Shown in pieces: positions 1,476 through 61,466 of a stretch of 64,000 nucleotides of DNA (the first letter of the stretch is position 1; each line of letters begins with the position of its first letter). The DNA comes from Toxorhynchites rutilus septentrionalis (taxonomy: Eukaryota; Arthropoda; Insecta; Diptera; Culicidae), in NCBI RefSeq assembly GCF_029784135.1, contig NC_073746.1, positions 104,470,661 through 104,534,660 on the forward strand, written 5' to 3'. Below the pieces are notes generated by a model. The model was given only the letters and a program-made list of their open reading frames with translations, was not told the origin of the DNA and ran no database searches. The position numbers and the translations under genes were made by a program.

Positions 1476-2090
1476 AATTATAGGAGGTTGTGTCCAAGAT
1501 ACGACCGCATTGTTGACGTAGAACTACGCTGTAAGTCGCTTATTTATACCTTCGGATATTATTTATAATGCTGTGAAATTTTAGAAACAACTACTTAGTA
1601 GAATAATCTCTGAAATAGTTCTTTCATTGTAGAATCAGTTGACGATAATTTATTGATGATTCATTCTTGCCCTCGCAAAACAATACACTAGCTGATCGTA
1701 TGTCGCAATTTATTTCATGTCAATGCATTGAAAATTTACCTCCAACGTTATTCCGGTGGCCTTTTTCGCAATTGACATAGACTCGGCTACAGTCGATTAT
1801 ATACATGTTGCACCAGCACCATTATTCCACATCTCATAACTACATCAATATATCTTTGGCACCGCATGGAAACAACAACAATGACAACACTTGCAAGTAT
1901 CAAATATCCTGATACATGTTATTTAGTAATATACATACTAAACATCGATTCATGTCGATGTTTAGTATGTAAATCGCCAGAATCCGTTCGCGTCAAAAAT
2001 AGTTATTAACGTTAACTTTATTTCATAAAAACGTGACCTGTTTTCTGATTTGGCACCCTTAATGAAAGATGTAGTTCTACGTCAAAAAAT
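1476..2090 (-). mobile_element. Family A module, internally deleted copy
   Basis: The low-coordinate end (AATTATAGGAGGTTGTGTCC, then TTGACGTAGAACTACG) is the family right end read on the minus strand. The high-coordinate end carries the family left end, GTAGTTCTACGTCA, preceded by the A-specific stretch that includes TGATTTGGCACCC. The same ends bound 12533-18175 and 58495-60470. The middle, with the promoter and open frame of the full copy at 58495-60470, is missing, leaving about 0.6 kb. A 16-bp perfect hairpin (1933-1970) marks the deletion junction. This is a non-coding derivative. Confidence 0.7.
1933..1970. repeat. Perfect hairpin at deletion junction
   Basis: Arms ACATACTAAACATCGA (1933-1948) and TCGATGTTTAGTATGT (1955-1970) pair perfectly over 16 bp around a 6-nt loop, TTCATG. 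Sequence on either side aligns to the two ends of longer family A copies, so the hairpin sits where the internal deletion was joined. Confidence 0.8.
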
Positions 2091-2682
2091 TGTCTTTAAA
2101 ATGAAAGTAAACAAGCATGGGCATCGGAACTCCGGAACTCCGGAACACGTGTAGATAGATCGACCTGATAATAGCTCTCAAATTTAATAGGGTAACAGTT
2201 CATTGGTTTGACTTAAAAGTAGGAAAATATTTCGAAATCGAATAGTGAAAATGTTGGCTTATTCGTTTTACTGGTGTCTCACTCTGCTGCAAATTCTTTT
2301 CTAGTACATAAAGCTATAACACCGAAAGGGAACTGTAGTTAAAGAATGATTACTTTCCGTATTGTGCCGTTTGGATCGGGAAACGATATTTAACATTTCG
2401 TTCCTACATCAACTGAGCCACATTAAGGATAACGAATCATTCTTTGAGCTATTTTCCAATTTTTCAATTACAACATGCTTATGTCTCAACCGATATCAGT
2501 TGCAATAATGTAAGTAGATTGAAACAACAGCTCGATTATCTAATGCTTTAAATTTCAATATTTGAACGATTTTATTGGATTTTATCGCGAACTCCTCGGA
2601 TCTCGACATTAACAACTCTTCATTTGTATGCTCATATTTTTCTCCATCCAGGCTCAACTGTGTTCAACTGTTGACATTTTTT
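2091..2682. other. Spacer between two head-to-head family A copies
   Basis: About 590 bp between the left ends of the minus-strand copy (1476-2090) and the plus-strand copy (2683-3750). No reading frame, RNA gene or repeat of its own was recognised. Confidence 0.5.
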
Positions 2683-3750
2683 TGACGTAGGACTACGTCT
2701 TACATTAAGGGTGCCAAATCAGAAAACAGGTCACGTTTTTATGAAATAAAGTTAACGTTAATAACTATTTTTGCTGCGAACGGATTTTAAAGATTTGCGT
2801 ACCAATCGAATCGGAAACTTTCTAAGATTTGTTTGATATGCTAGACATTACAATCCCATAGTCTGTATATGGTTTAAATTGATGAAAATTGGGAGCATTC
2901 CCATTTCCTCATACATTCGTCCATTTGTGTGCTTTCCCGAACAGAGCTGTCAATAACGAGCAACTTATGCTACCGCTAGAATAGAAACAGTCGGAGACGA
3001 ATGAATCGTTGGATTCAAAGTCTCCGTAAATAAATGGAAAGAAGAAGAAAAAGAATAGAAACAATGAAGGGGGGAGAGCGAAGAGAAAATTCTTAGAATC
3101 TTTCTGTGCCCGAAACAGCAAAGATCGCTTATTCTACTCGTTTTGTGTTTTATGTTTCGCCTCAAGCTGTGAACGCTAGCGAAAATTTCACTTGAAATTT
3201 ATCGCTGTAACTGTGTCCATCTGTTAGCGCGTGTTTGTTGTTTGTTGAATGGCGATGTACGGAAAATGCCTCTCGTTAAATAGTTAGTGCAATGCGTTCA
3301 TTGATATAAAGAAACAAAATGCGACATATCGCCAACTTAGAGGCGAATGAACTGCAAAGTTTAAAGCCTCTCAAAAACAAAGAATCAACATATCGCATTC
3401 GTAGCGTGGACACCGACTGGACAACATCGTTGTTGGACGAGCTGGACGGCGAGGGATTGAGTGCCTTTCTCAAGGCAATGAGGGTGGAGGTGTAGAGCTG
3501 GAGTAGAGTAAAGTTTTCCAAGGGCCTTTCTCAAGTCTAGAGACGAATGAACTGGAAAAGTTTAAAGTCTCTATAATACAAAACCTTCCTTCGTTCCATA
3601 TCGCCAATTAGTGTATTGTTCTCGCAAAGGCAAGAAAGAATCTTTGCTTCTCGAAATGATTCTTCAAAACCACGCAAGCCATTACACCTTTTCAGGGCTT
3701 AATTGCGTAGTCCTACGCATTAAGCGGTCATGTCTCGGATACAACCCCTA
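2683..3750 (+). mobile_element. Family A module, plus-strand copy
   Basis: It starts with TGACGTAGGACTACGTCTTA plus the A-specific sequence (TGCCAAATCAG, AACAGGTCACG) and ends with GCGTAGTCCTACGC followed by GCGGTCATGTCTCGGAT. Best relatives are 48732-49714 in the same orientation and 58495-60470 in the opposite one. The promoter-like segment of the A gene (AGTCTCCGTAAATAAATGG near 3021) is present, but the 78-codon frame of the 59.7 kb copy is not. The 48.7 kb copy lacks a 261-bp insertion found here at 3336-3596. Confidence 0.7.
3336..3596 (+). repeat. 261-bp insertion with 11-bp target duplication and two mini-retroposon units
   Basis: The insertion is flanked by CATATCGCCAA at 3325-3335 and 3597-3607. 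The paralogous module at 49470 has the continuous sequence (ACATATAACCAATTAG), i.e. an empty site. Inside are two copies of the unit beginning TAGAGGCGAATGAACTG / TAGAGACGAATGAACTGG (about 3338 and 3539), each followed by AAAGTTTAAAG and CCTCT/TCTCT. The segment between them (GACAACATCGTTG, GAGCTGGACGGCGAGGG) resembles family B sequence, so the insert may be a chimeric retrotranscript. Confidence 0.7.
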
Positions 3751-4447
3751 GAATTTTTTTTGCTTCATTCCGGACATCGAGCTTCACTCTCAGCGACACA
3801 CAATGTGATGCTTTCACCATATACTCTTCCGCGGGTAATGTTTGATTAGGTATTTTAATATTTAATGTCGAGTAAACGTTTCATGGAACTTTATGTGAAC
3901 GGCCAGAAGTGGTTTTTTTTTGTGTTCATTTTATTTCTTCCTGTGATCGCGTCATTGCTGATCGCTGTTTTAATTCCTTTCGGGCGATTTTCAAGAGTGG
4001 GAAAAATAATATGAAGCATTTGGCAGGTGCATCATGTGTTAAGAAAAAGACTAGGTGAAAGAATTAACACATGAATCAACATGCTGTTGCTGTTTAGTTG
4101 TAGACGTTGGGGAAATTGATGATCGTTTTTTCCTTGATTCTTGCCATCGCTTAGTGCGATAGAATGTCGGTTTGAAAAAATAAATAATGGCAAGCAAACA
4201 TTCCGTTAATGTTGTGTAACCCAAAGGGTCTGAATTTTGTACAAAAAAAATATGGATGGATGATGTCGGTGGCATAATCGGAGAGACGTAGAACTGGAAA
4301 CCATGCCAACATGCACCTATGTTTTCGACAGCAATGGCGAAAGTTGCTGCCAACTACCGCCCAACAGTCGAAATATTTTTGTAACATGATCAATGAAATT
4401 ATAATAAGAGTACCGGTAAGCTTCTTCGCTTTTTTTTTTTCAAAAAA
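3751..4447. other. No gene recognised
   Basis: Spacer between the family A copy and the family B copy. Short overlapping minus-strand frames (100-121 codons at 4051-4516) run into the family B end and have no recognisable domain. Poly-T and poly-A runs are present. Confidence 0.4.
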
Positions 4448-5102
4448 CAGGAAGTGGGTTATATCTATGGTATAACCGCAAGGGTGACGTAGGACTATCG
4501 TTGATTTAGAGATCATTTATTTGAAGTTGATTCTAAATCCATTCTGAATGAATGAAAAAATTAATATTTGGGGGACTTCAAAAACGAGATCGTTACGTTG
4601 GAGGCTCAAGGTTTTATGCATCCAATATTGGATACAAAAAACCTTGTTCTGAAGAATAATCTTCAGAAGCTTTCCTGCTAACTGCACTTGATTGACAAAT
4701 CACAAAACCAAATGTATGTGGTCGCAGTATTATATGGATAGAAAACATTAAAATAAACTCGCTTGAATGTAATTTTCAATTCCAAGGGAAACTGGCAGTT
4801 TATTTTTCAGCAACGATCATTTCTTTCCAGGTTTCTTCTCGATAACCAGCAAACGAAAAGAGTTGCGCGCGTGTATGTGTGTGTGTGGCGGCTGCTTCGA
4901 TGTCTTCCCGAGGAACCGTATTTCGATGCTGATACTCTCTTGGTCACCTTCTCTTCTCTTTCTGATCGATCGGCTTTTCTGCGCTCCCTCACAGTTAAAA
5001 CAAACTGATTGCATTTCAGGTCAGATCAGGCCAGGTAATAAATCCCACGATCCCTCGCCGTTCAGCTCGTTCAGTAACGATGTTGTCTTGTCGATGTCCT
5101 CA

Positions 5103-5256
5103 GGCGTCGTGCACAAATTACGTAACGCTAAAAATCCGGATCTTGAATCCCCTCCCCCCCCTTACGTAACGCAATTTCCTATATCTAATAAACAGTAAGT
5201 AACGCAACATCTACCCCCTCCCCCCTTATCGCGTTACGTAATTTGTGCACAACGCC
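5103..5256. mobile_element. 154-bp MITE with 26-bp inverted repeats
   Basis: Ends GGCGTCGTGCACAAATTACG (5103 on) and its inverted counterpart ending at 5256 agree at 25 of 26 bases. The homologous place in the other family B copy (GTGAGGACATCG near 15328) is uninterrupted, giving an empty site. Comparison shows TCA on both sides of the insert, a 3-bp target duplication (5 bp, CCTCA, if the last two bases are counted as target). The ends and 3-bp duplication suggest a PIF/Harbinger-like or similar origin. No coding capacity. Confidence 0.75.
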
Positions 5257-5639
5257 TCACGAAAAATGAATGGGTTTCACCACCAGAATATCATTTAAGA
5301 TACTTTTCGCGCGTGATTGAATCGAGAGTAGGTGTGGTTTACGATGGCAATTTGGAAGGCATACTACAGGAGAATGAACTCTCTGAGTATGAAAATTTCG
5401 GCGACTGAGCAAAAATCGATTCAAAATTATATAATTTTCGCGATACGAAACATTTTCCGTTGCGCGGGCATACAATATTGGATACGAAAATATCCTACTG
5501 ATGGGAAAGAATAATCTTCAGAAGCTTTCCAGCTAATTACACTTGATTGAAAAATTACGAAATCAAATGTATTTGGTCGCTGTGTTATATGGTTAGAAAA
5601 CATTAAAATAAACTCTTTCAAATGAATGTATTTTTAAAT

Positions 5640-6070
5640 TCCTAGAGGAACTGGCAGATTATTTTCAGTAACGATTAGATATTTCCACATTTTCCTCGAT
5701 ACTGGAAGCCCACCAGTGGTTTATGCTAACTCGATAACCACCTGTTAATAGCACTTGATTGAAAGATATTTAGTCACAGTGTCACATGGATAGAAAACAT
5801 TAAAATAAACTCTTTCACATGAATGTATTTTTAAATTCCCAGAGGAACTGGCAGATTATTTTCAGTAACGATTAGATATTTCCACATTTTCCTCGATACT
5901 GGAAGCCCACCAGTGGTTTATGCTAACTCGATAACCACCTGTTAATAGCACTTGATTGAAACATATTTGGTCGCTGTGTTATATGGTTAGAAAACATTAA
6001 AATAAACTTTTTCGCATGAATGCATTTTTCAATTCCAACGGAACTGGCAGAATATCTTTCAGCAACGATT
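5640..6070 (-). repeat. Tandem 198-200-bp units of family B
   Basis: The stretch containing GATTAGATATTTCCACATTT, GGAAGCCCACCAGTGG and CGATAACCACCTGTTAATAG is repeated about 200 bp apart (from about 5676 and 5876). These are the same monomers as in the plus-strand array at 13960-16800. Confidence 0.8.
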
Positions 6071-6175
6071 AGATCTTTCCGGAATTTTCTCGATGCTGTA
6101 TGGCATCCAAACGAAAATTCTCCTTTCAGTTTGGCCTACAAAAAACTTTTCTGAGCTCTAATCCATCAAATTTGG

Positions 6176-6191
6176 AGCCCTGAAAAGGGCC
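6176..6191 (-). promoter_or_regulatory. Histone mRNA 3' stem-loop (near-perfect)
   Basis: Read on the minus strand: GGCCCTTTTCAGGGCT. This matches the metazoan replication-dependent histone 3'-end hairpin except for the last pair. It lies just downstream of the left H3 relic, where such a signal belongs. In functional genes SLBP and U7 snRNP direct cleavage here instead of polyadenylation. Confidence 0.85.
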
Positions 6192-6204
6192 GTTGATTAT
6201 ATGC

Positions 6205-6575
6205 TAAGCTAATATAGCACGCTCTCCTTGGATTCGACGGGCCAGTTGAATTTCTTGGGCATGATGTGACGCGTTTTGCGTAGATAGCACACAAATTTGT
6301 ATCTTCGAATAGGCCTCCTGCAGCGTCATAACCGCGGAACTTTGGAAGCGCAAGTCGGTTTTGAAGCCCTGAGCAATTCCACGAACCAAATGCTGCAAAG
6401 GTAGCTTGCGGATCAGCAATTCGGTCGACTTCCGATAGCGATGAATTTCACGCAAAGTTCCCGGTCAATAACGAAGTGGCTTCTTCACCTTTTCTGCGGC
6501 TGGTGCGCTTATCCGAGCTGCTTTCGTGTGCCTTACCACCGAAAGACTAACGAGCTGTCTGCTTGGTCCCAAACA
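6205..6575 (-). pseudogene. Histone H3 pseudogene, left arm
   Basis: The minus-strand translation from about 6431 contains [23 protein letters not shown] and IQLARRI, which are H3 core segments (alpha-N through alpha-3). Upstream, in shifted frames, traces of the tail (TKQTAR, VKKP) continue to about 6575. The start codon is lost, the SEAYLV part of alpha-2 is deleted and the frame then shifts, so the C-terminal part reads in two frames (NLCAI and KRVT are recoverable only in the other frame). A normal H3 has 136 codons and no introns in replication-dependent copies. Its 3' stem-loop is well preserved. It is paired head to head with a second H3 relic. Confidence 0.9.
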
Positions 6576-6848
6576 AACGAGTCCTCACGGTGCGAGAGTA
6601 GAGTAAGAAATGAACGAAAGCAAAGGAGGCGTCATTTTATAAACTATAAAAGTATAGAATCTAAACCCCACCCTTATTATATTCGTAGCTTACCCTGAGA
6701 GAGAAACGAATAACATCAAAGTAAGTATACAGTAAGCTTAAATAATAAAGTGGGTGGGGTTTACATTCAATACTTTTATGTTTTATAAAATGACACTTCC
6801 CTTGCTTTCGTTCATTTCTTACTCTACTCTCGCACCGTGAGGACTCGT

Positions 6849-7225
6849 TTCATCGGGACTAAGCAGACAGCTCGTTAGTCTTTCGGTTGTAAGGCACCAC
6901 GAAAGCAGCTCGGATAAGCGCACCAGCCGCAGGAAGCGTGAAGAAGCCACATTGCTATCGACCGGGAACTTCGCATGAAATTCGTCGCTATCAGAAGTCG
7001 ACCGAATTACTGATCCGCAAGCTACCTTTGCAGCATTTGGTTCGTGGAATGGCTCAGGACTTCAAAACCGACTTGCGCATCCAAAGCTCCGCGGTTATGA
7101 CGCTGCAGGAGGCCTCTTAGAAAATACCAATTTGTGCGCTATCCATGCAAAACGCGTCACATCATGCCCAAGAACATTCAGCTGGCCCGTCGAATCCAAG
7201 GAGAGCGTGCTATATTAGCTTAGCA
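6849..7225 (+). pseudogene. Histone H3 pseudogene, right arm
   Basis: The plus-strand translation shows [28 protein letters not shown] and [13 protein letters not shown], all H3. The start codon is degraded (TTCATCGGG where ATGGCNCGN is expected), there is an in-frame stop after TKQTAR, part of the tail (ATKAAR) is missing, and a stop follows LQEAS. It mirrors the left arm relic. In mosquito histone clusters H3 usually pairs with H4, so an H3-H3 pair points to local inverted duplication. Confidence 0.9.
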
Positions 7226-7235
7226 TATAATCAAC

Positions 7236-7251
7236 GGTCATTTTCAGGGCT
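7236..7251 (+). promoter_or_regulatory. Degenerate histone 3' stem-loop
   Basis: GGTCATTTTCAGGGCT lies just after the right H3 relic. The loop TTTTCA is retained, but two stem pairs are broken compared with the left arm. Confidence 0.75.
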
Positions 7252-8336
7252 CCAAATTTGATTGTTAAGAGTCCAGAAAAGTTTTTTACAGGCCGAACTG
7301 AAAGGAGCATTTAGCGAAAATCGTGGTGTCGATGATAATTCGATACCGATAGGTGCCATGGATATGGATTTCATAATGAAGAATATGAAATACATGACAT
7401 GATGTAGTGAACATATCCGAAGAAATCACTTTGGTGAAACTGCATTATAAAATTATTTGTGTACGAATGCCGCAATCGATAGTCGACACTAATTTGCGCT
7501 GGGTAATTTCCTCGGAGGACTCGATTCCTTTTTTGAGCATTAATAATCTCTTTCTGGCAAAACGAAGTGGTATGAATCACATTATTCGAATGATAGAATA
7601 AAGATGTTTTCTGCCAATTTCCTTCAACCTCCAAACATCTCTTTCTCCCGTTTGTCGTTTTCACGTTCGCTAATCCTTTCTCACAACATCCATTTCTCGT
7701 TTGAGAAATTGTTGAGTAAACATCGTTTGCCAGTGCGCGTAGAGCGGGAATTCCTAAAGATTCATTGCACCTCTAAAAAATTGCCGAAAGACGTGGTCTT
7801 GCGTTGATCGCACTTGATTGAAAAAATCCAAAACGAAATGTATTTGGTCGCAGCATTATATGGGTAGAAAGCAAATAATCGCTCGAAAATGACTGGATTT
7901 TCGCGATGTGGAACATTTTCCGTTTTTCATGTTATGCATCCAATATTGGATACGAAAAAATTTCAGAAGAGTTCCTGTTAATTGCGATTGATTGAAAAAT
8001 CACAAAATCAAATGTATTTGGTTGCAGTGTTATATGGATAGAAAACATTAAAATAAACTCTTTCGCATGAATGTATTTTTCAATTCCCAGGGGAACTGGC
8101 AGATTATTTTCCAGCAACGATGATAGCAACGAGAGTTCCGCGCGTGTATGTGTGTGTGTGACGGCTGCTCCGATGTTTCAAGCGGAACCGTGGCATCACT
8201 CTCCTCCTGATGGATTCCCTTCTGGCATTAGGTGCACAAACAGGCTCTTGGTGACACCGTTCATCAGCGCTTTCATGATAAACGAAATTAGCTTCACCAC
8301 AACAGCGACAACATGCTCCAATCGCTGTTCAATTAT

Positions 8337-8372
8337 AACTGAGTGGGTTTACGAGCGGCGCTCGCTTATATA
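8337..8372 (-). promoter_or_regulatory. Core promoter of family B (TATA + Inr), minus copy
   Basis: On the minus strand TATATAAG is followed about 30 nt later by TCAGTT, the arthropod initiator. The same elements with the same spacing occur at 13739-13774 in the other copy. Downstream a 26-codon frame starts MKALMNGVTK and ends SGGE. No known protein matches this. Confidence 0.65.
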
Positions 8373-8649
8373 CCGATTGGTGATTTCAATAGCCTGTTTT
8401 GAAAGCAGTTTTAAGACTATTGAAACAAGTTTTTGGATGGAAAAGTAACAAGTATATGACGCGTAGACATTTTATCTTTTGAATGAAGTGTTTATCATAC
8501 CATTTCGTTCAGTTATTTAAGAGCTATTAACGCTCAAAATCTCGGTCTCCGGCGTAACGCTTTCGTTTTCGAAACTTTGATTTTACACCCCGGTATAGAA
8601 ATGAAAGACGTAGTCCTACGTCAAAAGAATGCTTTATTCCGCAGAAATG

Positions 8650-9560
8650 GTTACAAATTTAGTATTCAAAGTATTGCCCATCGCTAGTCACTACTTTTTC
8701 CTATCTTTCTGGCAATTCACGGATCTCTTTGCGGAAATAATCGGGCGGTTTGTCGACTAACCACGAATTGATCCAATTTTTGACTTCATCAAAAAAGTGC
8801 TGGTCAACCAGGCCATGTTGCATTGATCGAAAAAGATAGTAATCGGACGGATCAATGTCTGTAGAATACGGCGGGTGGGATAGGACCTCCCATTTCAGCG
8901 TTTCCAATTATGTTTTGACTGGTTTCGCGACATTCGGCCGAGCATTGTCGTGCTCAAAAATAACTTTAACGTGTTTTTGCTCGTATTGTGGCCGTTTGTC
9001 CTTCAGTGCACGGCTCAAACGCATCAATTGTCGTCGGTAGAGGTCCCCCGTAATGGTCTCATTCGGTTTTAGCAACTCATAATACACCACACCCGGCTGA
9101 TCCCACAAAATAGACAGCATAAGCTTCTGGCCGTGAATATTTCGCGCGGCCGTCGATGTTGATCCATGGCCGGGGTATATGTTGTCCGACATTTAAGATA
9201 GTCGTAATGGACCCACTTTTTATCGCCAGAAACGATTCGATGCAAAAAAACCCTTTCTTTTACGTCGTTGGAGCAGTTGCTCGCACGAGAAAAACGGCGT
9301 TCGACATCTCGTGGCTTCAATTCATACGGCACCCAATGTCCTATCTTTCGGATCATTCCCATTGCTTTTAAACGATCGGATATACCTACAATTCTTCATC
9401 TTCAAACTTCGTCGTTCCTCGTCTTCCAAGTCAAAATTACCACTTTTAAACCATGCAAACCACGTCTGACACGTTCGCTCAGTTGGAGCGTGGTCACCAT
9501 AAACTTCCACCAAAATGCGATGACTTTTAGCAGCTTTTTTCTTCGTATTGAAGATTACTT
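8650..9560 (-). pseudogene. Mariner transposase fossil (DD34D, cecropia-like)
   Basis: Fragments in three minus-strand frames give an almost complete mariner transposase: LVEVYGDHAPTERTCQTW (about 9513), GHWVPYELKPRDVERRF (about 9340), GDKKWVHYD with the first catalytic Asp, YYELLKPNETITGD (about 9080), HDNARPN with the second Asp, and HPPYSTDIDPSDYYLF with the third. The spacing between second and third Asp is 34 residues. Several frameshifts and an internal loss after LEDEERR make it non-functional. Terminal inverted repeats are not visible, so the element is truncated or decayed at both ends. Confidence 0.9.
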
Positions 9561-11160: not shown

Positions 11161-12532
11161 GGTCGAATAGAAGATCAATCAATGAACAGCTCTGCGATTG
11201 GACTCATGAACTTGCTCATGGTAAGAAAACGTGAATGTTTGAAGGTATTGATAACAAAAAACAAATTTTGGGCCGGACGAAATTTGCCGGATCAGCAAGT
11301 AACATATAAAAACAAACTACAAAAAATTTAGCACTAAAAACACTTCACAAAATCAACTGAAAACCTGAAAACAAAGAGCTATAAGTTTAGCTATTCAACA
11401 TAATTACATATTGGCACATCGGGCACGAAAACTGCACAACAAGACAACATATAGACAATCATAACAATCACAAACAATAGCAAGCAAATTGTCAAAAGAC
11501 AGGAACAGATGGAAACGAACCCGCTATGCACAGTGTCATTGTTTATGGCGAATATTCTAGACGCAACCCATAAAACATTTGGGCGATTCAAATGGCTATG
11601 GGACCAATCGTATAAATGGGGCACGAAATGTTATGAACAGAGTAGAGGCGAATGAACTGAAAAGTTTAAAGTCTCTTCAAAATAAAGAAGCAAGCAAGTA
11701 TGAACAGAGTCAGTCGCAAATAAACCATCGATCAGTATAGACCATCCAGCTTCGGCTATATTTCTTCTCATCTCTACTAGAACATCGGATAGCCGGATAG
11801 CCTCATCTACTAGGACTCTGCTCAGAAACCTATCTGGGCGGAGACATAGGTAATGTATTATTTACAATTTACAAGAGAACATTATTCAGATGACTGGATT
11901 CAGATGATTTTTATGTCCGATTCTGTAGATTTTATGACGGCTGGGATTGCACATTCCATATGCTAATTAGCGCTAATTTCTTCCGGAGTGACTCCATCCA
12001 CCCATATCGTTTTCCACGTCCGCAAAACGGAACCCCTCGCCCACCAGCCACCAAATTGGCTCGTGCCTCTCTCTGCTGGTGGAATTTCTAGGCGTGCAAA
12101 ATAAGGAAGTCAGCTCCATTTCCTTTGCATGGTTGCCCGGATGCGAAATGGAATGAAATTCTCATATGGAATCTCATGAATGCAAAATTTGGGCTTCAAA
12201 ATCATTTGCGTTTACATGATTGTGGGAAGGTAAGAGTGTTTTTTTTTCAAAACAATGTGCAAAATTACCTGTGAGACGCGCAAATCTCCGATTAGCTTAC
12301 TTATGAATGCTGTTTTGTGAATGTTTCATAGTAGTGTACATAATAGAGATTAAATGGATATCCGGTATGTATCCCTTATTTTTTACTTATTTTTTACTTT
12401 TCAGCCAGATGCCGATGATTAAAATAAAATTAAACAAAATGCCATTGGCACATGATTGATCATACAAACAGAGGCGACGCGTGACTCAAACAGAAAAAAA
12501 TAAAAATATTCGGGATAATATGGAAATAAAAA
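11161..12532. other. No gene recognised apart from a mini-retroposon
   Basis: AT-rich sequence with one 56-bp retroposon-like insert (11643-11698, separate entry). A somewhat GC-richer stretch near 11990-12130 has no convincing reading frame. Confidence 0.45.
11643..11698 (+). mobile_element. 56-bp mini-retroposon with 11-bp target duplication
   Basis: The insert begins TAGAGGCGAATGAACTG, continues AAAGTTTAAAG and TCTCT, and ends in an A/AG-rich tail. It is flanked by TATGAACAGAG at 11632-11642 and again at 11699-11709. A second insert of the same length (17714-17769) has its own target duplication. The first part can fold: AGAGRC pairs with GYCTCT about 20 nt later. Direct duplications of variable length plus an A-rich tail are typical of LINE-mobilised RNA. 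Confidence 0.8.
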
Positions 12533-13738: not shown

Positions 13739-13774
13739 TATATAAGCGAGCGGCGCTCGGAAATCCACTCAGTT
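13739..13774 (+). promoter_or_regulatory. Core promoter of family B (TATA + Inr), plus copy
   Basis: TATATAAG at 13739-13746 and TCAGTT at 13769-13774 place the probable start A 32 nt after the first T of the TATA box, textbook spacing. About 60 nt on, a 26-codon frame starts MKARMNGVTKSLFVH and ends SGGE. The minus copy keeps both the promoter and this short frame. Confidence 0.7.
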
Positions 13775-13959
13775 CTAATTGAACAGCGATTGGAGCATGT
13801 TGTCGCTGTTGCGGTGAAGCTCTTTATTTATCATGAAAGCGCGGATGAACGGTGTCACCAAGAGCCTGTTTGTGCACCCTAGGCCAGAAGGGAATCTATC
13901 AGGAGGAGAGTGATGCCACAAACGGTTCCCTGGGAAGACATCGCTACACACACATACAC

Positions 13960-48599: not shown

Positions 48600-48671
48600 A
48601 CCAAATCATTATCAAAGAGTTTAACAATGTAATGCTTCAAAAATATCCAAAATCAACAGATATCCTAACGG

Positions 48672-48725: not shown

Positions 48726-48731
48726 TTATTT

Positions 48732-50992: not shown

Positions 50993-51955
50993 CTAAATAC
51001 ATCATTATGGTAAAACTATTTTTTTTTCACCGATAGATCTGCAGTTAATGATTTTTCTCGATATCGACAAACTAATCAAAAAGCACTGAGGTCCAAGTGC
51101 AATGCATCTCTCATAATATTCCTCTTCCACAATGACACCGTTATAAAAAGTGATAATACAGCACATAACACATGAAATAAACGGTGCAATCCAAAACACG
51201 TCTTTACGTGACGATTCACTGAGCCTCTCTATCCGCATAAATACATGGGGGCATGATATATAATCATATAGAAACTTGACATAATAATTCAAAACAAAAA
51301 GACTAGCTAGAGGAAGGCAACCCAATGTGCCGGTGAGAGATGTGTTGGCTCGGTTAGACCTTGATTACATGTCCCAAATATATGTCTTCCTAAAAGTTAT
51401 CGATCTTCGTGTGTGATTGTCCTTATATCCTTATATTCTCCTTTTCCTTTTCCTTCGCGAGAAATCAAATCCCTTCTAACTAACAATAGAATAAGGTGAA
51501 ATGTAAGAACATATTACATATAAGATAGGCTTAAGAATTGAGTATGATGAATGTGAGTGCGAATGTGAGCGTGAACATTGTCAACATATCCTTATATCCC
51601 ATCCTTTTCCTGAAACAAAATGTCACCCTTCTAAACTCGAGCAAACCGCGAGTAATCGGTTCTCTACTTCATCAACATTAGAATTAATAAAAAATGTTTA
51701 TATATACTTGTAACTATACAGATAGGAGTGTGGCTCCTTTAAACTTATGTAACTGAGCCTGTAAAAATAAACGATTTAATAAAAAAAAAAGACTAAGACA
51801 AAACCGAATCAGTTTTTCATATATCTATAATTGATTATTTTTTAATGAAAGTTGAATGAATAGTATTACCAATATCGGGTATACAAGCAAGTCCTAAAGG
51901 ACGAGTTCTTCTTTCATAAATTTTCGTTAATGGTCTTGAGCTGCAATTTCTATTT
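50993..51955. other. No gene; A-tailed retroelement end near 51640-51790
   Basis: GCAAACCGCGAGTAATCGGT resembles the LINE 3' UTR at 24.8 kb. CTGAGCCTGTAAAAATAAAC with an A run follows and is mirrored at 34.9 kb. This is probably a truncated LINE 3' end. Confidence 0.45.
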
Positions 51956-52469
51956 TGACGTAGGACTACGTCTAACCGGAAGATATAGGGGGTGAAATGG
52001 AAATCTAGGCTCTGAACAAGTAGGAAAAAATGCAAGATTTGGAACGCTTATAACTCGAGCATTTCTCAATAGATCGCAAAGGTTTTTGCATCAATTGATA
52101 GGAAATATATCTACGCATCTATCATAACGAATAACATTTCATCTTTCTTGAGATAAATAATTGAATAATTGTGAAATATCAAGCATTGTCAAAATGCACT
52201 ATGTGCCCATTTTTGATTGGTCCATTTTGTGCTCCTCAAATCGTACCGACCAAAACGGGCAACCAGCAGCGAAATAGAATGAAGCACGATTGGAAAGTAA
52301 AAAGAAAAAAATGAACGAAACATTGGTCGCAGTCTCACACATGCGTAATTCTCGAGCCAGCCAGTCAGCTTAAAAATCCCCGCTCCGCTGCCGTAACGAT
52401 CATTCTCATTCAAACCGTACACCACATCGTTTCGCATCACAACACATCAACAAACCAACCCAAGCAGCC

Positions 52470-52675
52470 ATGTCTGGACATGGTAAAGGAGGAAAAGTGA
52501 AGGGAAAGGCAAAATCCCGCTCGAACCGTGTTGATCTGGAGTTCCCCGCAAGGGTAGCTAGGCCGAGCGCGTTAGTACCAGTGCACCAGTCCACCCAGCC
52601 GGCGTTATATAGTTTCGGCCGCCGAAGTGATCGAGTTAGCTGGCAAAGCTGCTCGCGACGATAAGAAAACCCGCA
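52470..52675 (+). pseudogene. Histone H2A pseudogene 1
   Basis: Starts MSGHGKGGKVKGKAKSRSNR, the H2A N-terminal tail (one His where Arg is usual). It then passes LEFP (H2A: LQFP) into an internal deletion that removes the GRIHRL part. The remainder is recognisable in shifted frames (RKG, VGAGAPVY equivalents), and VIELAGKAARDDKKTRI matches H2A alpha-3. After this, H2A similarity is lost. The upstream region has CCAAT boxes and ACAACACATCAACAAACC-type leader, so the 5' end is well preserved. Confidence 0.9.
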
Positions 52676-52928
52676 TTCGGAACAGAACACATTCGGAACA
52701 GAACACATTCGGTTCGGTGGACATCAAGACAACAGGCAGTTGCAGCGAGTGGCGAGTGGCAAACGCAATCGCAAAACGGCATCAGGTAGCAGAAGAAAAA
52801 AGTTTGTTCTTTATACAAACTGCTTTGGTGGCAAAACCAGAACAAGGCGGCATCGAGGGCGTTCGAAATTGTTTTTTTCAAAACCACGAGTACTAAGTTT
52901 TCTAAATTGGAACCATTCCATAAAACAC

Positions 52929-52944
52929 GGCGCTTTTCAGGGCC
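52929..52944 (+). promoter_or_regulatory. Histone 3' stem-loop, one stem mismatch
   Basis: GGCGCTTTTCAGGGCC follows H2A relic 1. The loop is canonical; one stem pair is broken. AAAAAAGAGTTTAGG downstream resembles the histone downstream element. Confidence 0.8.
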
Positions 52945-53162
52945 ATTAAACCTTCCAAAAAAGAGTTTAGGAAATACAGTTCAATGCTTTCTAAAACATT
53001 ATCCAAAATAATAATAAAACACAAATTGATTTTTTCATCATTTGTTTGCCAGGATCTGATGAGTATGTGAATATGGCAGTTGTTCTGAGCTTATTGATAG
53101 TTGGGGACTTTCCTGATTATTAAATTTTCACCAATTCTTAAATTATTTCCAGATTGAAAGTA

Positions 53163-53382
53163 CAGTAATTTACAATTAGTTCGAAATTTAGCTAGTTGGA
53201 CGGACATGTAATGCGACTTATTTAGTTGAACATTTTTGTAAACATGAAGATCCAAATTATTACCCCACATTGAAAGTCGACACTGTACCACTGTCATCGC
53301 AAATGTTCAATTACAGGTTAAAATCGCCTCCAATGCGACACTGAGTGGCGCTTCGGCACGTCGCATTGAATGTAATTTACTG
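53163..53382. mobile_element. Possible 220-bp TA-flanked MITE
   Basis: CAGTAATTTACA at the left and its inverted counterpart TGTAATTTACTG at the right are flanked by TA. However, the right end also occurs alone in the direct repeat at 54074, so the boundaries are tentative. Confidence 0.35.
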
Positions 53383-53508
53383 TACAACATGTCACAAAGC
53401 TGGATGGGAAGAAATTTTCCAACTGTGAAAGCTGTGGCGAGTGGCAACAAATCGCTAAACAGGAAGGTTTAGCCGAACAAGATGGGGATATCGAGTGATA
53501 ACAAAACA
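53343..53508 (+). repeat. Direct repeat, first copy (second at 54074-54250)
   Basis: GAGTGGC, CGGCACGTCRCATT, GCTGGATGGGAAGAAATTTT, CCAACTGTGAAAGCTGTGG and GAACAAGATGGGRATATCGA are shared over about 165 bp. The second copy follows H2A relic 2, so this is duplicated histone 3' flank. Confidence 0.85.
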
Positions 53509-53538
53509 ATAAACTCTTTAGATTGAAGATAATTTTGT

Positions 53539-53554
53539 GATCCTGAAAAGGACC
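53539..53554 (-). promoter_or_regulatory. Histone 3' stem-loop on the minus strand
   Basis: The minus strand reads GGTCCTTTTCAGGATC, followed by CTAAAGAGTTTATTG about 25 nt on (downstream element). This implies a histone gene once read leftwards from about 53.7 kb, as in an H2B-H2A divergent pair; its coding part is not recognisable. Confidence 0.75.
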
Positions 53555-53714
53555 CTTTTTAGCCTGCATGTGAATCCAACAAGCGAACAAATCGTAATGA
53601 ATGTATTGTTTTGCCATCGCTCCCTTTTAACGCTCATTCGTTCGTCTCGTTGGACTCGCCCTTCTGGCTGAGTCTGCCGATTTGTCTCTATCCTGTGAGT
53701 GTGTACCGCTAGAG

Positions 53715-53720
53715 TATAAA
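53715..53720 (+). promoter_or_regulatory. TATA box of H2A relic 2
   Basis: TATAAA about 85 bp before the first recognisable H2A codons. Confidence 0.5.
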
Positions 53721-53799
53721 ACACGCGGACCCCAAAAAAATATCTTATTTTCTTTCAAACCGTAAACCCGTGTGGTTGTACGACATCGGCATCGTGGAC

Positions 53800-54030
53800 G
53801 TAACAAAGGAGGATAAGTTAAGGGAAAGGCAAAGTCTCACTCGAACCGTGCAGGTCTCCAGTTCCCTGTTGGTCGCATTCACTGATTGCTCCGCAAGGGT
53901 AACTAGGCCGAACGGATTGGTGCCGGAGCACCAGTATACCTAACAGCGATTATAGAGTTTCGGCCGTCGGAGTGCTCGAGTTGGCTTGCAAAGCTGCTCA
54001 CGACAATCAGAAAACCCGCATCAAGAACAG
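53800..54030 (+). pseudogene. Histone H2A pseudogene 2
   Basis: The start codon is lost. In shifting frames one reads KGKAKSH(S)NRAGLQFPVGRIH (AGGTCTCCAGTTCCCTGTTG), then the RKGNYAERVGAGAPVY equivalent (CTCCGCAAGGGTAACTAGGC), then ELACKAAHDNQKTRI. It is more complete than relic 1 in the middle but has many stops. Its 3' stem-loop at 54262 is perfect. Confidence 0.9.
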
Positions 54031-54073
54031 AGCAGCTTCGGTTCGGCGCTCATCAAGGCAACAAATAGTTTCA

Positions 54074-54250
54074 GTGAGTGGCAAAGTGTTTCTCCGGCAC
54101 GTCACATTAAATGTAATTTACTGAACAACATGTCACAAGCTGGATGGGAAGAAATTTTCCAACTGTGAAAGCTGTGGCGAGTGACAAACGCAATAGCTAA
54201 ACAGGAAGGTTTAACCGAACAAGATGGGAATATCGAGTGATAACAAAAAC
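54074..54250 (+). repeat. Direct repeat, second copy
   Basis: Partner of 53343-53508, located between H2A relic 2 and its stem-loop. Confidence 0.85.
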
Positions 54251-54261
54251 ACAACACCAAA

Positions 54262-54277
54262 GGTTCTTTTCAGAACC
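54262..54277 (+). promoter_or_regulatory. Histone 3' stem-loop with compensatory pairs
   Basis: GGTTCTTTTCAGAACC: a perfect 6-bp stem with the canonical loop. Compared with GGCCCT/AGGGCC, two pairs changed C-G to T-A on both sides. ATAAAGAGTAAACAG downstream fits the purine-rich element. Confidence 0.85.
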
Positions 54278-54475
54278 ATCAACATATTCATAAAGAGTAA
54301 ACAGTAAACTAATCTATTTTTCAGGTAGATAGGTAGGTATTCACGTAGGAGAAGAAAATAAAACAATATATTTAAAATATATATTTAACAAAAGCTGTCC
54401 CCTTTGTATAGTCCTACGGCACTCCGGTTATGTCCCCGACATTACCCACCCGTCTTTTTTTTAGAACTCATCATT

Positions 54476-54671
54476 GTGTTCCCGTGGTTGAGTGGTTAGC
54501 ATCACACCTAACATGCCGTGGGTTCGGGTTCGATTCCCGTTCTGGCTGGGGGATTTTTCGTTATATGGCATAGAAATCTCAACTAAGTACTAATAAAAAT
54601 GACGCAAGTAATACTACGTCGAAGTTCCTCTAGGAACTTTAGTGCCATTTAAGAAGAATAAGAAAAAGAAG
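54476..54671 (+). mobile_element. tRNA-derived SINE, type 2, plus copy
   Basis: TCCCGTGGTTGAGTGGTTAG (A box), GGTTCGATTCCCGTTCTGGC (B box), body with CTCAACTAAGTACTAATAAA, then CTCTAGGAACTTTAGTGCC and an AAG-rich tail. Same family as 47479-47692. Confidence 0.85.
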
Positions 54672-55988
54672 AACTCATCATCTACAACAGATATATCAGA
54701 TAATGAATGACACCGGAGAAATACTTCATCATTTTGGGAAAAATGAATCACTTGAAATTTATTGCACCTGTATTACGATAGAAATTTATGCATGAAACAC
54801 TTACTCTAAGTGCACATCGTTTATATTTATGTGATGGAAATGGTTATTATCCAGTCATATACCGTACAGCCTATATTTGGAATATGCTTCAAAGCTTCAA
54901 AAATCGCTTTATTATAGATATGAAAAACATCCTGCTGCTCCAATGGGCGTCATCATCCTTCAAATTCACTGGAAACAAAAGTCCATAAATTTTAGCTTCA
55001 TGAAAACCGCCACTAGTAGCCACTTGTTTATGACCAATTCGGCTTTGTTGATCGCAAACACTCTATTTTATCGATACTGCAAGCCATAAATATTAGTGCT
55101 AAACACGGGCCGTAACATAAAATACAGTATCTATTCATTCCTCGAATCAGCAGCTTCCGCTCTTCGTCCACCATGCGCCTACGAAAATTATGTGTTCAGG
55201 AATAATAAAGCAAAACAAACCAAATAATATATTTATTCGTTCATCCCACCAAACACAGGACCGCCCTGGCCGCCCGCACGTATACGCATCTATTCATGAA
55301 ATAATCTAATCATGATTGCTCAATTTAACAAATTGTGTGTGCGTAATTGATTTTCGCTCGTAAAACACTCCCGTTCCCGTAAGTGATAACATTTCCCTTT
55401 TATGAGTTTATGGGTAATGGGCGGTCCCCACAATGTCCAATGTGCGTGCGAAACGATTCATCAAGCTGTGTTTGGGTCCCATTTGGCGCGAATGGCACTG
55501 AGCTGGGAAAGCTGCTGTCCGTTAAAGTGGGGGATCAATTTTTAACTGCCACTCAACGCGACAGCGGAGTGTTGCTTTGAAGTATTTAAGTGATCATTAT
55601 GATTAGTTCGAATCGTGAGTTATGCACATTGATGCAGATTTTTCCCGGGTCTAGTGGTTTTCTAAGAGTTAATATTCCTAGTGCCATATTCCATTTGTAA
55701 AGTCTTACTGATGGTAGAAAAAAGATCCAGTTAGATTTCGAACACAGCTTGCGGAAAATATTCTATATCTAATGTGTGATATACGTACCCCGAGTTGCGT
55801 TCAACATTATTGTTGTGAAAACCTTTATAAAAACACCTTGTTCACATACCATGGAATGAAACAACACACCTAAAGTTCACACCTGATGCACGATTGATGC
55901 GATCTCGTGCTTTTTATCTTTTTCAAAAGCATGAAGTGCGTCTCGAAGCATCAACTGTTGTACAACGTCGTGTCAGCCCAAGTGGTTT
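54672..55988. other. No gene recognised
   Basis: AT-rich with a slightly GC-richer part (55380-55580). A 65-codon frame there has no recognisable domain. Confidence 0.4.
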
Positions 55989-56235
55989 TGACGTAGGATT
56001 ACGTCTTTCGGGAACATATTGGGGTACAAATTGAAAAACGAATATCGATCGCATCGTGAAAAATGTCCAATTTCAAACGTTTATTGCTCAGTCATTTCAT
56101 GACGGATTGATGAGATATTTACATAAAAACATTGCGGCACTCAATAACAATTTTTCATCTTGAATAAAATAATATATATCATGTAATTAACTATCGAACA
56201 ATTGAAAAATCTCAACCCCTATCCAAACGGTACTG

Positions 56236-56310
56236 ATTGGTCGAAATTGACGTCATTTCTTTTTCGCCTGCTTCGCTTCTTTCGTTCCCTGATAAGTCAA
56301 ATATTTGCAT
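56236..56310 (+). promoter_or_regulatory. Histone-like promoter (CCAAT, CRE, octamer)
   Basis: ATTGG (inverted CCAAT) at 56236-56240, a perfect TGACGTCA at 56248-56255, and the octamer ATTTGCAT at 56303-56310. The octamer is characteristic of H2B promoters. Confidence 0.6.
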
Positions 56311-56814
56311 GGCGAGCGAGTGGGGGGCGCCTATTTCTCACATACCAACTGATGTAAACGGACGGTAGCATTTTTGGATTTCTCATCAACTTAAAGATGT
56401 AGAACCCTAGGTTGATCACTTGAAATGTATTATTATATTATAATGTAAACCAAATTAAGAAATAAAAAGAATTTAAGTGAAAAAAAAAAGTTGGATTTCT
56501 CATTCTCGTTCAACGCTCAGATCGGCAAACATTTAACAGACTTTAAACTTTACGTTCATTCGTCTCTAGCCCTGAGAAGGGCCCTTGCGAAGAGAACTAG
56601 TTCATACTCTTTCTCGACCTACCTTTAGAAAGACATTTTCATTGTCGCTCAGCACTCCTCAGCAAACGAGTCTGCTTTCGGCGGCACCAAGCGATGCCAT
56701 GAGCAATATTCATTTAGGGAGGCAGATTAATCTCCCATCGAATTAGCAGGCCCAAAGGCAGTTTTGAATTGATAAAATTTAAATGTATTTATTTTTTTTA
56801 TTTTGATTTTTGAC

Positions 56815-56830
56815 GGCTCTTTTCAGAGAC
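56815..56830 (+). promoter_or_regulatory. Histone 3' stem-loop, one mismatch
   Basis: GGCTCTTTTCAGAGAC with the same downstream ACCAAATCATTATCAAAGAG as the stem-loop at 48584. Confidence 0.8.
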
Positions 56831-56956
56831 ACCAAATCATTATCAAAGAGTTTAACAATATAGTTTCTCAAACGTATCCAAAATCAGCATGTGGCAGATA
56901 GCCTAACGTAATCCTACGTCAACTATGCGGTCGTGTCTCAGACACAACCCTCCTGT

Positions 56957-58494
56957 GGCTTTTTTTTATTTGTAAAACATCCCCCACTATAAGATACAAC
57001 CTATCTGTACAAGCAGGTTAGCAGGTTAGGGAATACACCAAAACACCGATTAAAGTCCGAGGAAAAAACACGGGAAGTGGGTCGAAGCCTACGAGAAGAT
57101 GCTTTCATTCCGCAGCATTTTATTATATTTATTTCCTTTTACTTTTCCCAAGGACATTTTTACTGCTACGTGAGAAGACGAAAATCAATGATTCATCCCA
57201 GGATATTCCCTAAAATACCGAGCTATTTCGATTTTACGATACAAGAAGTGATATGCAAAGTGTATCCCAAAAGTATTTTACGAATTTATGAAATCCATTA
57301 ATATCGTCGGGGCAAACGATGGCAGTCCCTGTGTTTAACTTTAAGGAATATTGTGTTGTTTATTACGATCACCTAACGGATGTAACGTTGAAATTATATT
57401 TCATGTTTTCTCCTTAAATTTTTTTCGATATATTTGGGTCAAATACCAGTGAAGTGATTCCATATGGTCTCCCTATTTAACATATAATTTCCTAGAAAGA
57501 TTTGAGCCCGGTTAATTATATTGTTTTTAAATGTGTTGTGATTTTTTACGGTTTGTTAATGCAATCGTATTATCTGTTGAGTAGAAAAAATACAGTAATT
57601 CCTGTTGAACTTGGAATAATTTTAGTTTAATCGAAATCCAGTTTACTTCCACCCATGTTCAGTTTTCAGTATCTCTATCTAGTATCTAATTCTTATGAAA
57701 TTTTATCATGGCCGATGTTTATCCCGACATCAAATTTGTACAATCAATTGAGAAGCAGAATCAACGACAACCTTGGATCCTTTAGCTATGATTCCATATG
57801 TACATAGATTAACGAATAAACAGAAAAGTTTGTAACAACTCCGTCAGTGTAAAATCGAGATGCAATGAAAAGTGCTGCCAAAAAAAAAGTTGTTTGACTC
57901 ATGTATCATGTATCTTGATACCACCAACAATAACAAACCTCCCCAACACCAAATTTAGAACTTTGTGTATCCGGAAGAAAGACAAAAACTCTCCATCCGT
58001 CCTAGAGAGCATTGCAAAAAAATACCCAATATTTTTTCCGTTTTTGGCATCCTAATCCCTCCTCTGCCAATGAGACGAAGTCAATATTGTTAGAGTGTGG
58101 AAAGTTTCACCTGCTGCAAATATTTTTATTTGCGCTACAATTTCCGTTCTGTTTACTTTGTGGGCTGCCTTTTCTCGTATTTTCATTCACACTCCACCGA
58201 TGCACTATGGGGGATTTTAATTCCAGCAGGCGGACAAAAAAACATTGAGCAACGGGTTTTGATGCCAAATCATCCAGTCGCTGCCCCGAAACTTTGTACA
58301 ATCGTTCGCGAAATCACAATTCTATTATCAAATGACCACTTTTATATACGATTTTCTAAAGTGTCATTTCCAAAAACATTTTCTCGACAAATAGTAACTC
58401 GGAATTTAGATATCTGATCAAAATGTAGTGTTGTGTTATTGTTATTGGTTATTAAGAAAGCAATAAACTTAATGACATAAAATGAATGACAAAA
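56957..58494. other. No gene recognised
   Basis: AT-rich. Frames of 74-106 codons (57077-57301, 58012-58417) have no recognisable domain and no promoter or splice context I can support. Confidence 0.4.
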
Positions 58495-60470
58495 AATTAT
58501 AGGAGGTTGTGCCCAAGATACGACCGCATTGTTGACGTAGAACTACGCTGTTATTTTATATAAGTCGCTTATTTATACCTTCGGATATTATTCTATACTG
58601 CTGTGAAATTTTGGAAGCAACTGCTTAGTAGAATAATCTCTGAAATGGGTTTTTCATTATAGAATCTGTTGACGATAATTTATTGATGATTCGTTCTTGC
58701 TCTCGCAAAACAATACACTAGCTGATCGTATGTCGCAATTTATTTCATGTCAGTGCATTAAAAATGTACCTCGAACGCTATTCCGGTGGCCTTTTTCGCA
58801 ATTGACATAGACTCGGCTATAGTCGATTATATACATGTTGCACCAGCACCATTATTCCACTTCTCATGACTACATCAATATATCTTTGGCACCGCATGGA
58901 AACAACAACAATGACAAAACTTGCAAGTATCAAATATCATACTACATGTTATATAGTATTGCCTCAAAGGAATTGCACCTCTAGGCATCGTTCGTACAAC
59001 GTAAACTAAGCGCCAAACAAGCGTCCGCCATAGCATGCATACAGAGCCATACATTGGTGGTTTGAAACTACTAGGAATACAAATACTTCTCATCATTTTG
59101 CGCTATTCTCAAACGAAACACTTCTGTTAATATTACTGGTCACGGATAAAGTTACATTACTTTCTCATGCTCGAGTAGCAAAGCTGTCATCCTTAGTGGA
59201 GGAAGCTTTGCTACTGGCAAGCGAAACCTAATCATATACAAAATTCCAGCACATTTACTTTCTTGGTTTCTTGGTGAAATAAACTCTTTTTGTTAATAAC
59301 AACCTCGAAAACGGTAGCAATGCTTCATTATGATCAATATTAGCGCAAATGCAATACTAGTTGAAGGCAGTTTTGCGACTGGCACGCGAACTCAAATAAC
59401 TTATAACATTCCAGTAAGACATTCAAGATACTTGGTATTCCTCAAATAATTTTTTGGCGCCTGCTTCGCCATAACGTCAGTTTAATGCATTGATGCATTC
59501 TCAAAGGCACCAACGAATCCCTTATGATGACGGAAAACAAACAATGTTAACTGCTTGGAAAAAGACTGAATTATGCCACACAGCCTGTACTCTGCTGTAA
59601 CACTCATCGATGCGAATTAGCTGATGAGTTTGTCAAGAGCGACCGCCGTCACCACCATCGGGGGAGCTTGATCTAGGTTGCTGCCTGGGTAACGGCGTTT
59701 ACATTTTCGATCGACGCGCCGAAATCGCCCACTTTGCTGTTGTTCGATGCGGTGTCACACTCGCGAAGGCTCGGTTCAGTACGAGCGCTTTTCACTGCAG
59801 CAACATCGCGTACATCATTAGATGACGCTTGCTTCGAAATTTTATTGTCCTTGGCAATGCGTTCGTTTTTTGCAGAGCTCGAGCCTGCCTTCCTCTTCTT
59901 CTTGCTCATCGCAAACTACGCGAAGCGTCCAATTTATGACGCGGAAAGAAAAATATACGATACGAATAATGCGAAAAACGAACAGAAAAACCAAACGACG
60001 ATATCCAAGTTGGATTACCATTACCAAAGTGAACTAGATTGCTCCACAGTCCAATGCCGTATGAAAGTTTGCCTCAGCGAGACCCACTGTTTATACTCTA
60101 GCAAGTATTCCCCTTCATTATTTTACTTTTCCTTTGTTCACGGAGACTTTAAATACGATTTCCCCTCCGTTGGTCGTCGATAAGTTGCTCGTTACTGACT
60201 GCTCTGTTCGGGAAAGCTCACAAATGTACAGAACAAATGTATGGGAAAATGAAAACGCTTAAAGTTTTCATGAATTTTAACCATTTACAAACCAGGGGAT
60301 TCTAATGTATAGCATATTAAACAAATCTTACGGAATTTCCGATTCGTTTAATATGTAAATCGTCAAAATCCGTTCGCGGCAAAAATAGTTATTAACGTTA
60401 AAATTATTTCATAAAAACGTGACCTGTTTTCTGATTTGGCACCCTTAATGAAAGACGTAGTTCTACGTCA
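58495..60470 (-). mobile_element. Family A module, most complete copy
   Basis: The right end is at 58495 (AATTATAGGAGGTTGTGCCC, TTGACGTAGAACTACG), the left end at 60470 (GACGTAGTTCTACGTCA). It contains a leader with GTATTTAAAGTCTCCGTG, a 78-codon open frame (59673-59909), an overlapping second frame, and a 3' region whose 70-codon frame (58875-59096) is also open in the 12.9 kb copy. It lacks the family B and mini-retroposon insertions of the 12.5-18.2 kb copy. Confidence 0.8.
59673..59909 (-). CDS. Unknown small basic protein of family A
   Basis: 78 codons from ATG (59907-59909): MSKKKRKAGSSSAKNERIAK, then QASSNDVRDVAAVKSARTEP and NVNAVTQAAT before TAG. In the sister copy the equivalent of the stop is a Lys codon and the frame ends a few residues later (KIKLPRWW). 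A second frame that starts at about the same place (APPMVV..., ALDKLIS) runs to about 59482 with one stop; in the sister copy it is fully open. The two frames may once have been one protein of about 140 residues, now separated by a shift. The Lys-rich start suggests nuclear location. No known family is recognised and this copy may itself be a relic. Confidence 0.4.
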   Translation of the reverse strand: MSKKKRKAGSSSAKNERIAKDNKISKQASSNDVRDVAAVKSARTEPSLRECDTASNNSKVGDFGASIENVNAVTQAAT

Positions 60471-60849
60471 AAAAAGTAGAAGGGTCTGAGCCTAGGGGCA
60501 CGGACGGAAGTTTGACGTAGGACTGTGATTATTCAGAACACTTGGTTATTTTAAATGTAATTCTTTCATTGTTTATAAATCTGTTAGTTTAACTTTTTTG
60601 ATACTCTAAATAATATCCCTAAAAAGGGCCGTTTGTTGTAAGTACTCATAATCTTCGAACGGTTTGTAACGAACAGAGAAAGACTATAAGCTTCTGGCAG
60701 GAAATTGAACTGTCTAACTGAAAATGATTAATGAATATCAGTGGGACACATAACAGGGTGGAATGGTAGATGAGGTATATGTGAATCGGTGAACAAAAAA
60801 AAAATTTCATTGATTACATTCAAAATGAGAATCGAAAAAAAAAGTTGAA
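60471..60849. other. Spacer with a partial module end and a stem-loop
   Basis: TTTGACGTAGGACTGTG at 60511 is a truncated left end. On the minus strand 60615-60630 reads GGCCCTTTTTAGGGAT, a degenerate histone stem-loop. No gene. Confidence 0.5.
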
Positions 60850-61466
60850 AATACTCACGATGTCATGATATTTTGAGGTAAAATACACATAAAATCATGA
60901 AGTTGCTTTGTTTTAATGGATAGCTATGGTATTGTAATGTTTTCCCATTGTCTTATTCTTATTTTTAGGCTTCGGGAGTATTTCGATGAAATAATGTTCG
61001 TTTGCATACTATCACAATCAAGTCTTATTGGTTCTACTGCTCAATCTATCATGGAAGGAATTGAGTCATTGAGAATTGTGAATTGAAGAATATGAATATT
61101 CCATTTCGTTTCATTTTTGTGATGCGATGTAATCCCGATCTCAATAAGTTTTCGCATGATAATCGCTGCCTCCTCCTAATTAACGAAAGATCACTGTATG
61201 GGTGACACTTTCCTCGTTGCTTTGATGAAAAGTTTGAATGATGCATGAAATCTTGCATCTGATTACTTTAACGTCTCGCTAATTTATTAGATGGCACTCA
61301 ATTTTTTGTTACATACAACATTCATGGGAACGAAGTTGGAAGAAAGAATGCATAATACATGATTTACTTCGCATCCGCTCGCAAAACATACCTCTCTTAT
61401 TTGTTGAATTGCTCACTTGTTTTATTATTTCACTGTCTCAGAAATCAAAGACGTTGTCCTACGTCA
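60850..61466 (-). mobile_element. Family D module, second copy (empty site)
   Basis: An inverted relative of the family D module at 43302-45385. The left end (minus) is at 61466: GACGTTGTCCTACGTCA preceded by AGAAATCAAA. At 61350-61375 it reads through the point where copy 1 carries the ITmD37E element. The distal (right) end is not clear. Confidence 0.75.

Follow-up and report, generated by a model that had tools for sequence, protein, structure and literature searches.

The described systems closest to the modules analysed here are the Helentrons, their non-autonomous derivatives (HINEs) and the Helitron2 group. HINEs of mites carry the second of their subTIRs 38–60 bp from the 3' terminus, and histone gene fragments, assigned to the H4 superfamily (smart00428) and to H15, are described in one Culex quinquefasciatus family, Helentron-Cq-32A, with eight copies, in the part of that study drawn on here (Thomas, Vadnagara and Pritham 2014, PMC4067079). 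Helitron2 elements have a 5' hairpin formed by the 5' repeat and the bases downstream of it, and a similar hairpin is seen in our modules; Helitron2 elements of Chlamydomonas families insert after TTTT, and Helitron-1N1_CQu and Helitron-1N2_CQu show compensatory changes at their ends (Bao and Jurka 2013, PMC3627910, in the part drawn on here).

In the 64-kb stretch of DNA analysed in this work (referred to as a whole as the window), modules with differing interiors share a pair of characteristic ends, and we hold with high confidence that they are non-autonomous Helentron-type rolling-circle transposons (HINEs; Helitron2 group) belonging to several related families. They are filed with the HINEs because of their asymmetric palindromic subTIRs, 3' stem-loop, T-runs of variable length, matched changes at the two ends and, in some of them, tandem repeats. 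The original prediction knew of no named family with these ends, which is not supported: their layout, as the parts of the two papers drawn on here describe it, matches that of Helentrons and HINEs (PMC4067079) and of Helitron2 (PMC3627910). An apparently nameless module system is thus placed in a known transposon class, and its end profiles can be used on whole genomes. Two other classes were considered and set aside. Canonical Helitrons (Helitron1) have 5' TC, 3' CTRR and A/T insertion, and the ends found here are TTTTGACG... and ...T-run; IS200/IS605-type ends are bacterial.

Allowing at most 3 mismatches, the pattern GACGTAGnnCTACGTC occurs 19 times in the 64-kb window, compared with a mean of 0.78 and a maximum of 3 in 100 shuffles. 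Seventeen of the 19 are ends of the elements described below, and the matches at 27972 and 54605 look like chance. Five of the 11 right ends (3704, 4501, 17023, 49666 and 54405) are missed by the pattern and found by profile. When nhmmer profiles were applied with one copy left out, all 11 left ends (E <= 1.6e-6) and all 11 right ends (E <= 2.7e-5) were recovered, which confirms as element ends each of the 22 places for which this had been proposed. Sister copies of the same family were kept in these profiles, and consequently the elements that have no sister are the harder cases; one of these, C, was recovered with E of 5.4e-7 at its left and 2.7e-5 at its right end. The right end of D, earlier considered tentative, is likewise supported (E 6.2e-8 when left out). 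Pairing of the ends yields ten elements bounded on both sides, namely A1 to A5, B1, B2, C, D and E, and the incomplete set comprises F with a decayed right end at 60529 (profile E 0.055), H0, of which only the right part was detected, and a single right end on the minus strand (4295–4245, profile E 5.3e-5) that resembles by eye the right end of C. Outside the window, the end patterns gave 0 matches in viral contigs and matches in 3 bacterial contigs of a genome contig collection, which we take as chance, and a search of open full-text literature for several spellings of the end sequence found no paper.

The elements of family A comprise A1 (12528–18179, minus strand), which is interrupted by B2; its uninterrupted relative A2 (58491–60473, minus); the short copy A3 (1471–2087, minus), which has both ends and matches parts of A1 and A2 at 92–96% identity; A4 (2680–3761, plus), also with both ends; and A5 (48729–49723, plus), all delimited by the end profiles. 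The left 126–375 columns of family A are 79–96% alike between copies, whereas in its right part A5 is just 62–63% alike to A1, A2 and A3. Family B consists of B1 (4442–8626, minus, both ends) and B2 (13485–17082, plus), again delimited by end profiles, and much of both is filled by tandem repeats of ~198 bp (5565–8206 in B1, 13853–16817 in B2). The end profiles also delimit C (51953–54462, plus), E (55986–56967, plus), D (43299–46142, plus), which has both ends and no T-run at the right one, and F (60475–61469, minus), which forms one family with D. H0 (48579–48726, plus) was located by the right-end profile and consists of a histone 3' stem-loop and a right end; no left end was found for it. 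The claim that the interiors are unrelated stands in so far as they do differ between families, but C and E share their left 242 bp at 63% identity, A1 and D are 66% identical over ~141 aligned columns that take in the right end, and D and F belong together. H0 and E are 82% identical over 153 columns. A piece of ~59 bp is common to A4 (3523, plus) and E (56583, minus) in opposite orientation at 85% identity, and part of it also occurs in A1; a promoter piece is one possibility.

Element D is itself interrupted by a Tc1/mariner-type copy (43562–44864, minus) that is 97% identical to another at 22123–23428 (plus); the Pfam family DDE_3, detected in two of 50 ORFs, probably corresponds to these copies. 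Just downstream of C, at 54475–54560 (plus), lies a sequence that by eye appears tRNA-derived and SINE-like, and its segment 54481–54558 matches 47609–47687 in reverse; a tRNA scan of the window returned 0 tRNA genes. This repeat, a putative DD37E-type transposase and the resemblance of the element layout to that in Culex make a mosquito host plausible.

An insertion can be seen in B2, which is nested in A1, while A2 contains the same sequence without B2, with the junction at a T-run. The empty site in A2 has a T-run of 6, and in the filled site in A1 the element is preceded by TTTT and followed by TTTTTTT; just to the right of this T-run A1 has ~13 additional bases that are missing from A2. 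Given these 11 T in the filled site against 6 in the empty one, together with the ~13 extra bases of A1, a short T duplication may have accompanied the insertion of B2, as judged from this one empty site. Elements of the Helentron group insert into T-rich sequence and do not duplicate their target; here, T-runs flank all 11 left ends and 10 of the 11 right ends, and the single empty site is likewise a T-run. In addition, A5 lies next to the right end of H0 and A2 next to the decayed right end of F, in both cases at a T-run. The proposal that the ends are insertion boundaries is therefore borne out by B2 and its matched empty site, and a common mobilising machinery, also proposed originally, continues to be the best reading of different interiors that share their ends at such boundaries.

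The same arrangement bears on the possibility that the modules are spacers of a tandem or dispersed histone array that is not mobile, with the histone relics representing decayed units of the array. Histone pseudogenes or stem-loops in several modules agree with this, but B2 lies inside A1 at a site that A2 preserves without it, the interiors differ, and no match to histone coding sequence was found in A1, A2 or B2. Head-to-tail histone units at regular spacing were looked for, and the elements were found instead to be dispersed, with one of them nested. Since elements occur in both orientations, nested and abutting, they are not the spacer of a tandem histone repeat, the finding that the original prediction had named as fatal to it, and we regard the histone array as a very improbable explanation.

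Equally improbable, in our judgment, is a cut-and-paste DNA transposon of MITE type, for which the palindrome would be a terminal inverted repeat and the short T string a target duplication. Inverted copies of the motif do occur near both ends, with T-runs on both sides, and 11 T in the filled site compared to 6 in the empty one is what a T duplication would give. The anatomy of the two ends argues to the contrary. At the left, the terminal 16-mer agrees with its own reverse complement at 12–14 of 16 positions in all 11 copies. It is preceded by 4–7 T in every copy (exactly 4 in five copies), so that all 11 left ends have the palindromic subTIR following TTTT, in keeping with its location at or 2–4 nt from the 5' terminus in the Helentron group. 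At the right, the number of self-complementary positions is 6 in B1, B2, C and F, 8 in A5, 10 in A1, A2, A3 and E, 12 in D and 14 in A4. The original notion of one near-palindrome at both ends thus holds for the left end, while the right copies (6–14 of 16) are often not palindromic. What the right end retains is 12–14 bases complementary to the left end, outside of which it is often non-palindromic, and this complementary second subTIR is set back from the 3' terminus, as in the Helentron group: the distance from the right subTIR to the start of the T-run, counted by hand in five copies (A1, A5, B2, C and E), is 32–39 bp, and up to 47 bp when the T-run is included. At least 6 T follow 10 of the 11 right ends found by profile, the exception being D. 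The symmetric terminal inverted repeats of a MITE are not what is seen, because the right repeat is internal, behind a conserved hairpin tail of 32–39 bp, and the two ends are asymmetric.

Matched changes at the two ends are a published feature of this group, and matching of this kind is observed here. When each left 16-mer is compared with the right 16-mer of its own element, 136 of 176 positions agree, as against 130.5 when the partners are shuffled (p 0.001; the 11 copies are related); with one copy per family or subfamily, three different choices of copies yield p of 0.024, 0.033 and 0.05. In the centre, for example, AA at the left is answered by TT at the right in A1 to A3, and in E GGAT is answered by ATCC; no matched change of the centre is found in D and F, the left GGAA of D being paired with a right GTAC. 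The tail is also conserved in its pairing, with 81% of the cells of the hairpin stem paired in register as compared with 26–44% when the stem is slid (10 distinct tails). The tail hairpin shows no more covariation than letter shuffles do (118 of 500 shuffles were as high). Regarding the small inverted repeat ascribed to the right tail, a hairpin bounded by GGT...ACC is indeed kept, and CCTCCTGT occurs in exact form in H0 and E only. In folding compared to shuffles, the left palindrome reaches z of -3.6 (consensus 18-mer) and -2.4 (B end), the right ends of B, C and E show a weak advantage (z -1.4 to -1.5), and the right end of A3 (z +0.7) gives no hairpin. The small hairpin near the 3' terminus that characterises the Helentron group is accordingly present by its pairing register and weak in folding. 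Least probable of all is a Crypton-like element moved by a tyrosine or serine recombinase, for which the palindrome would serve as the site of the recombinase, with T as crossover core. The motif is palindromic and the two ends do have the same short T string, but the left copy alone is reliably palindromic, the right-end hairpin tail is to our knowledge no part of a Crypton-like layout, and no recombinase family was detected among the 50 window ORFs scanned.

If the elements are HINEs, as we prefer, transposition would depend on a Rep/helicase (fused to an endonuclease in Helentrons) that an autonomous Helentron at another genomic location would provide. This enzyme would nick at a T-run, one strand would be copied from the left palindrome to the right subTIR and hairpin, presumably by a rolling-circle step, and the copied strand would be inserted into another T-run. 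Among the 50 window ORFs of at least 90 aa, no Pfam family of Rep, helicase or endonuclease was found at E 0.01. The scanned ORFs do include reverse transcriptase (2 of 50) and RNase H (1 of 50), probably from a sequence resembling a non-LTR retrotransposon remnant at 25192–28207 (minus), and Transposase_1 (1 of 50), probably from what looks like a mariner transposase fragment at 8908–9362 (minus). A 461-aa ORF at 40520–41905 (plus), which has one protein match at 34% identity and may resemble APPBP2, may be a host gene, and a degenerate A-rich array with an 8-base period occupies 42606–43005.

Several elements carry pieces of histone genes. Two H2A pseudogenes were found by tblastn in C (52470–52686, E 1.8e-7, and 53796–54031, E 9.9e-20), each of which has a histone-type stem-loop ~230 bp downstream. 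B1 contains an inverted duplication of 1.2 kb (6115–7312, self-match 88%) with two back-to-back H3 pseudogenes, matching H3 at 6527–6216 (E 1.9e-37) and 6899–7173 (E 7e-35); we take smart00428 to be a model of H3. No match to this duplication was found in B2, and no recognisable histone coding sequence lies near the stem-loops of H0 and E. Only one stem-loop scores above the Rfam gathering score, namely that at 54257–54301 in C (41 bits); those at 48579 (H0, 28.5 bits), 52924–52969 (C, 23.5 bits), 6151–6196 (B1, 22.6 bits) and 56810–56854 (E, 18.4 bits) score below it. A stem-loop-like sequence in F at 60630 was detected by pattern only. Family A shows a decayed trace by alignment only, in A5 near 49562 and in A4 as CACCTTTTCAGGGC ~20 bp before the right subTIR (the latter by eye and alignment only), and D has no recognisable stem-loop. 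A strict stem-loop pattern occurs 8 times in the window, always within element intervals (22.2 of 64 kb, with the interval of H0 set by hand), compared to a mean of 0.65 and a maximum of 4 in 60 runs of a Markov null. Three of the 8 are doubtful: the one at 52870 is chance-like, and those at 53554 and 56583 are antisense with no adjacent histone gene seen. A looser pattern gives 47 rows against 20–41 in ten null runs, to which we assign no weight because some stems are counted on both strands.

The kinship of these regions was assessed from the 130 bp preceding the right subTIR in 8 representatives (28 pairs, z uncorrected for multiple tests). The values are 5.1 for A1–D and A1–A5, 3.4 for A5–D, 3.3 for A5–H0, 3.1 for F–H0, 2.9 for F–E, 2.8 for D–H0 and 2.6 for A5–E, and they are low for A1–E (0.8), A1–F (0.0), D–E (0.3) and D–F (-0.1, despite these two forming one family). 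No pair that includes C exceeds 1.2 and none that includes B2 exceeds 1.7, which suggests that the cargo of C and that of B1 are probably separate from that of the other elements. We infer that there were at least two, and probably three, separate acquisitions of histone material, the H2A, H3 and 3' stem-loop pieces having presumably entered the elements by capture. Four elements, H0, E, F and C, have a histone 3' stem-loop 83–143 bp before the right subTIR, its quality varying between them (83 bp in H0, 90 bp in E and 101 bp in F, where the match is weaker), and on this ground one may suppose that histone transcription units recur in this Helentron lineage and are perhaps useful to it, with element transcripts produced and processed in the manner of S-phase histone mRNA, or that the elements preferentially insert into and capture histone genes; we consider this unlikely.

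Compared with known systems, the elements share with the Culex Helentrons and HINEs the palindromic 5' subTIR, another subTIR lying some way inside the 3' terminus, the 3' stem-loop, insertion at T-runs with a varying number of T, tandem repeats in some elements, and histone fragments, a likeness of layout (PMC4067079, in the part drawn on here). The set-back of 32–47 bp ranges from just under to within the published HINE values (PMC4067079). With Helitron2 they have in common asymmetric terminal inverted repeats whose 3' copy lies just upstream of a 3' hairpin, 32–39 bp before the T-run here and 20–30 bp from the 3' end in Helitron2; this likeness too concerns layout, as our elements are known from their ends and not from an observed protein (PMC3627910). 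DINE-1 of Drosophila also has subTIRs, a 3' stem-loop and a preference for TT, but it also contains a core sequence and an inverted repeat separate from these, and its subTIRs are not themselves palindromic (PMC4067079). No later report of histone fragments in Helentrons appeared among the matches listed in a non-exhaustive search of the open literature, of which PMC4067079 alone was relevant as judged by title or abstract. Whereas histone fragments in Culex are described from one family in the part of the 2014 report drawn on here, H2A and H3 pseudogenes and stem-loops are distributed over several families in the present window, and the histone-carrying elements found here therefore extend that report (PMC4067079).
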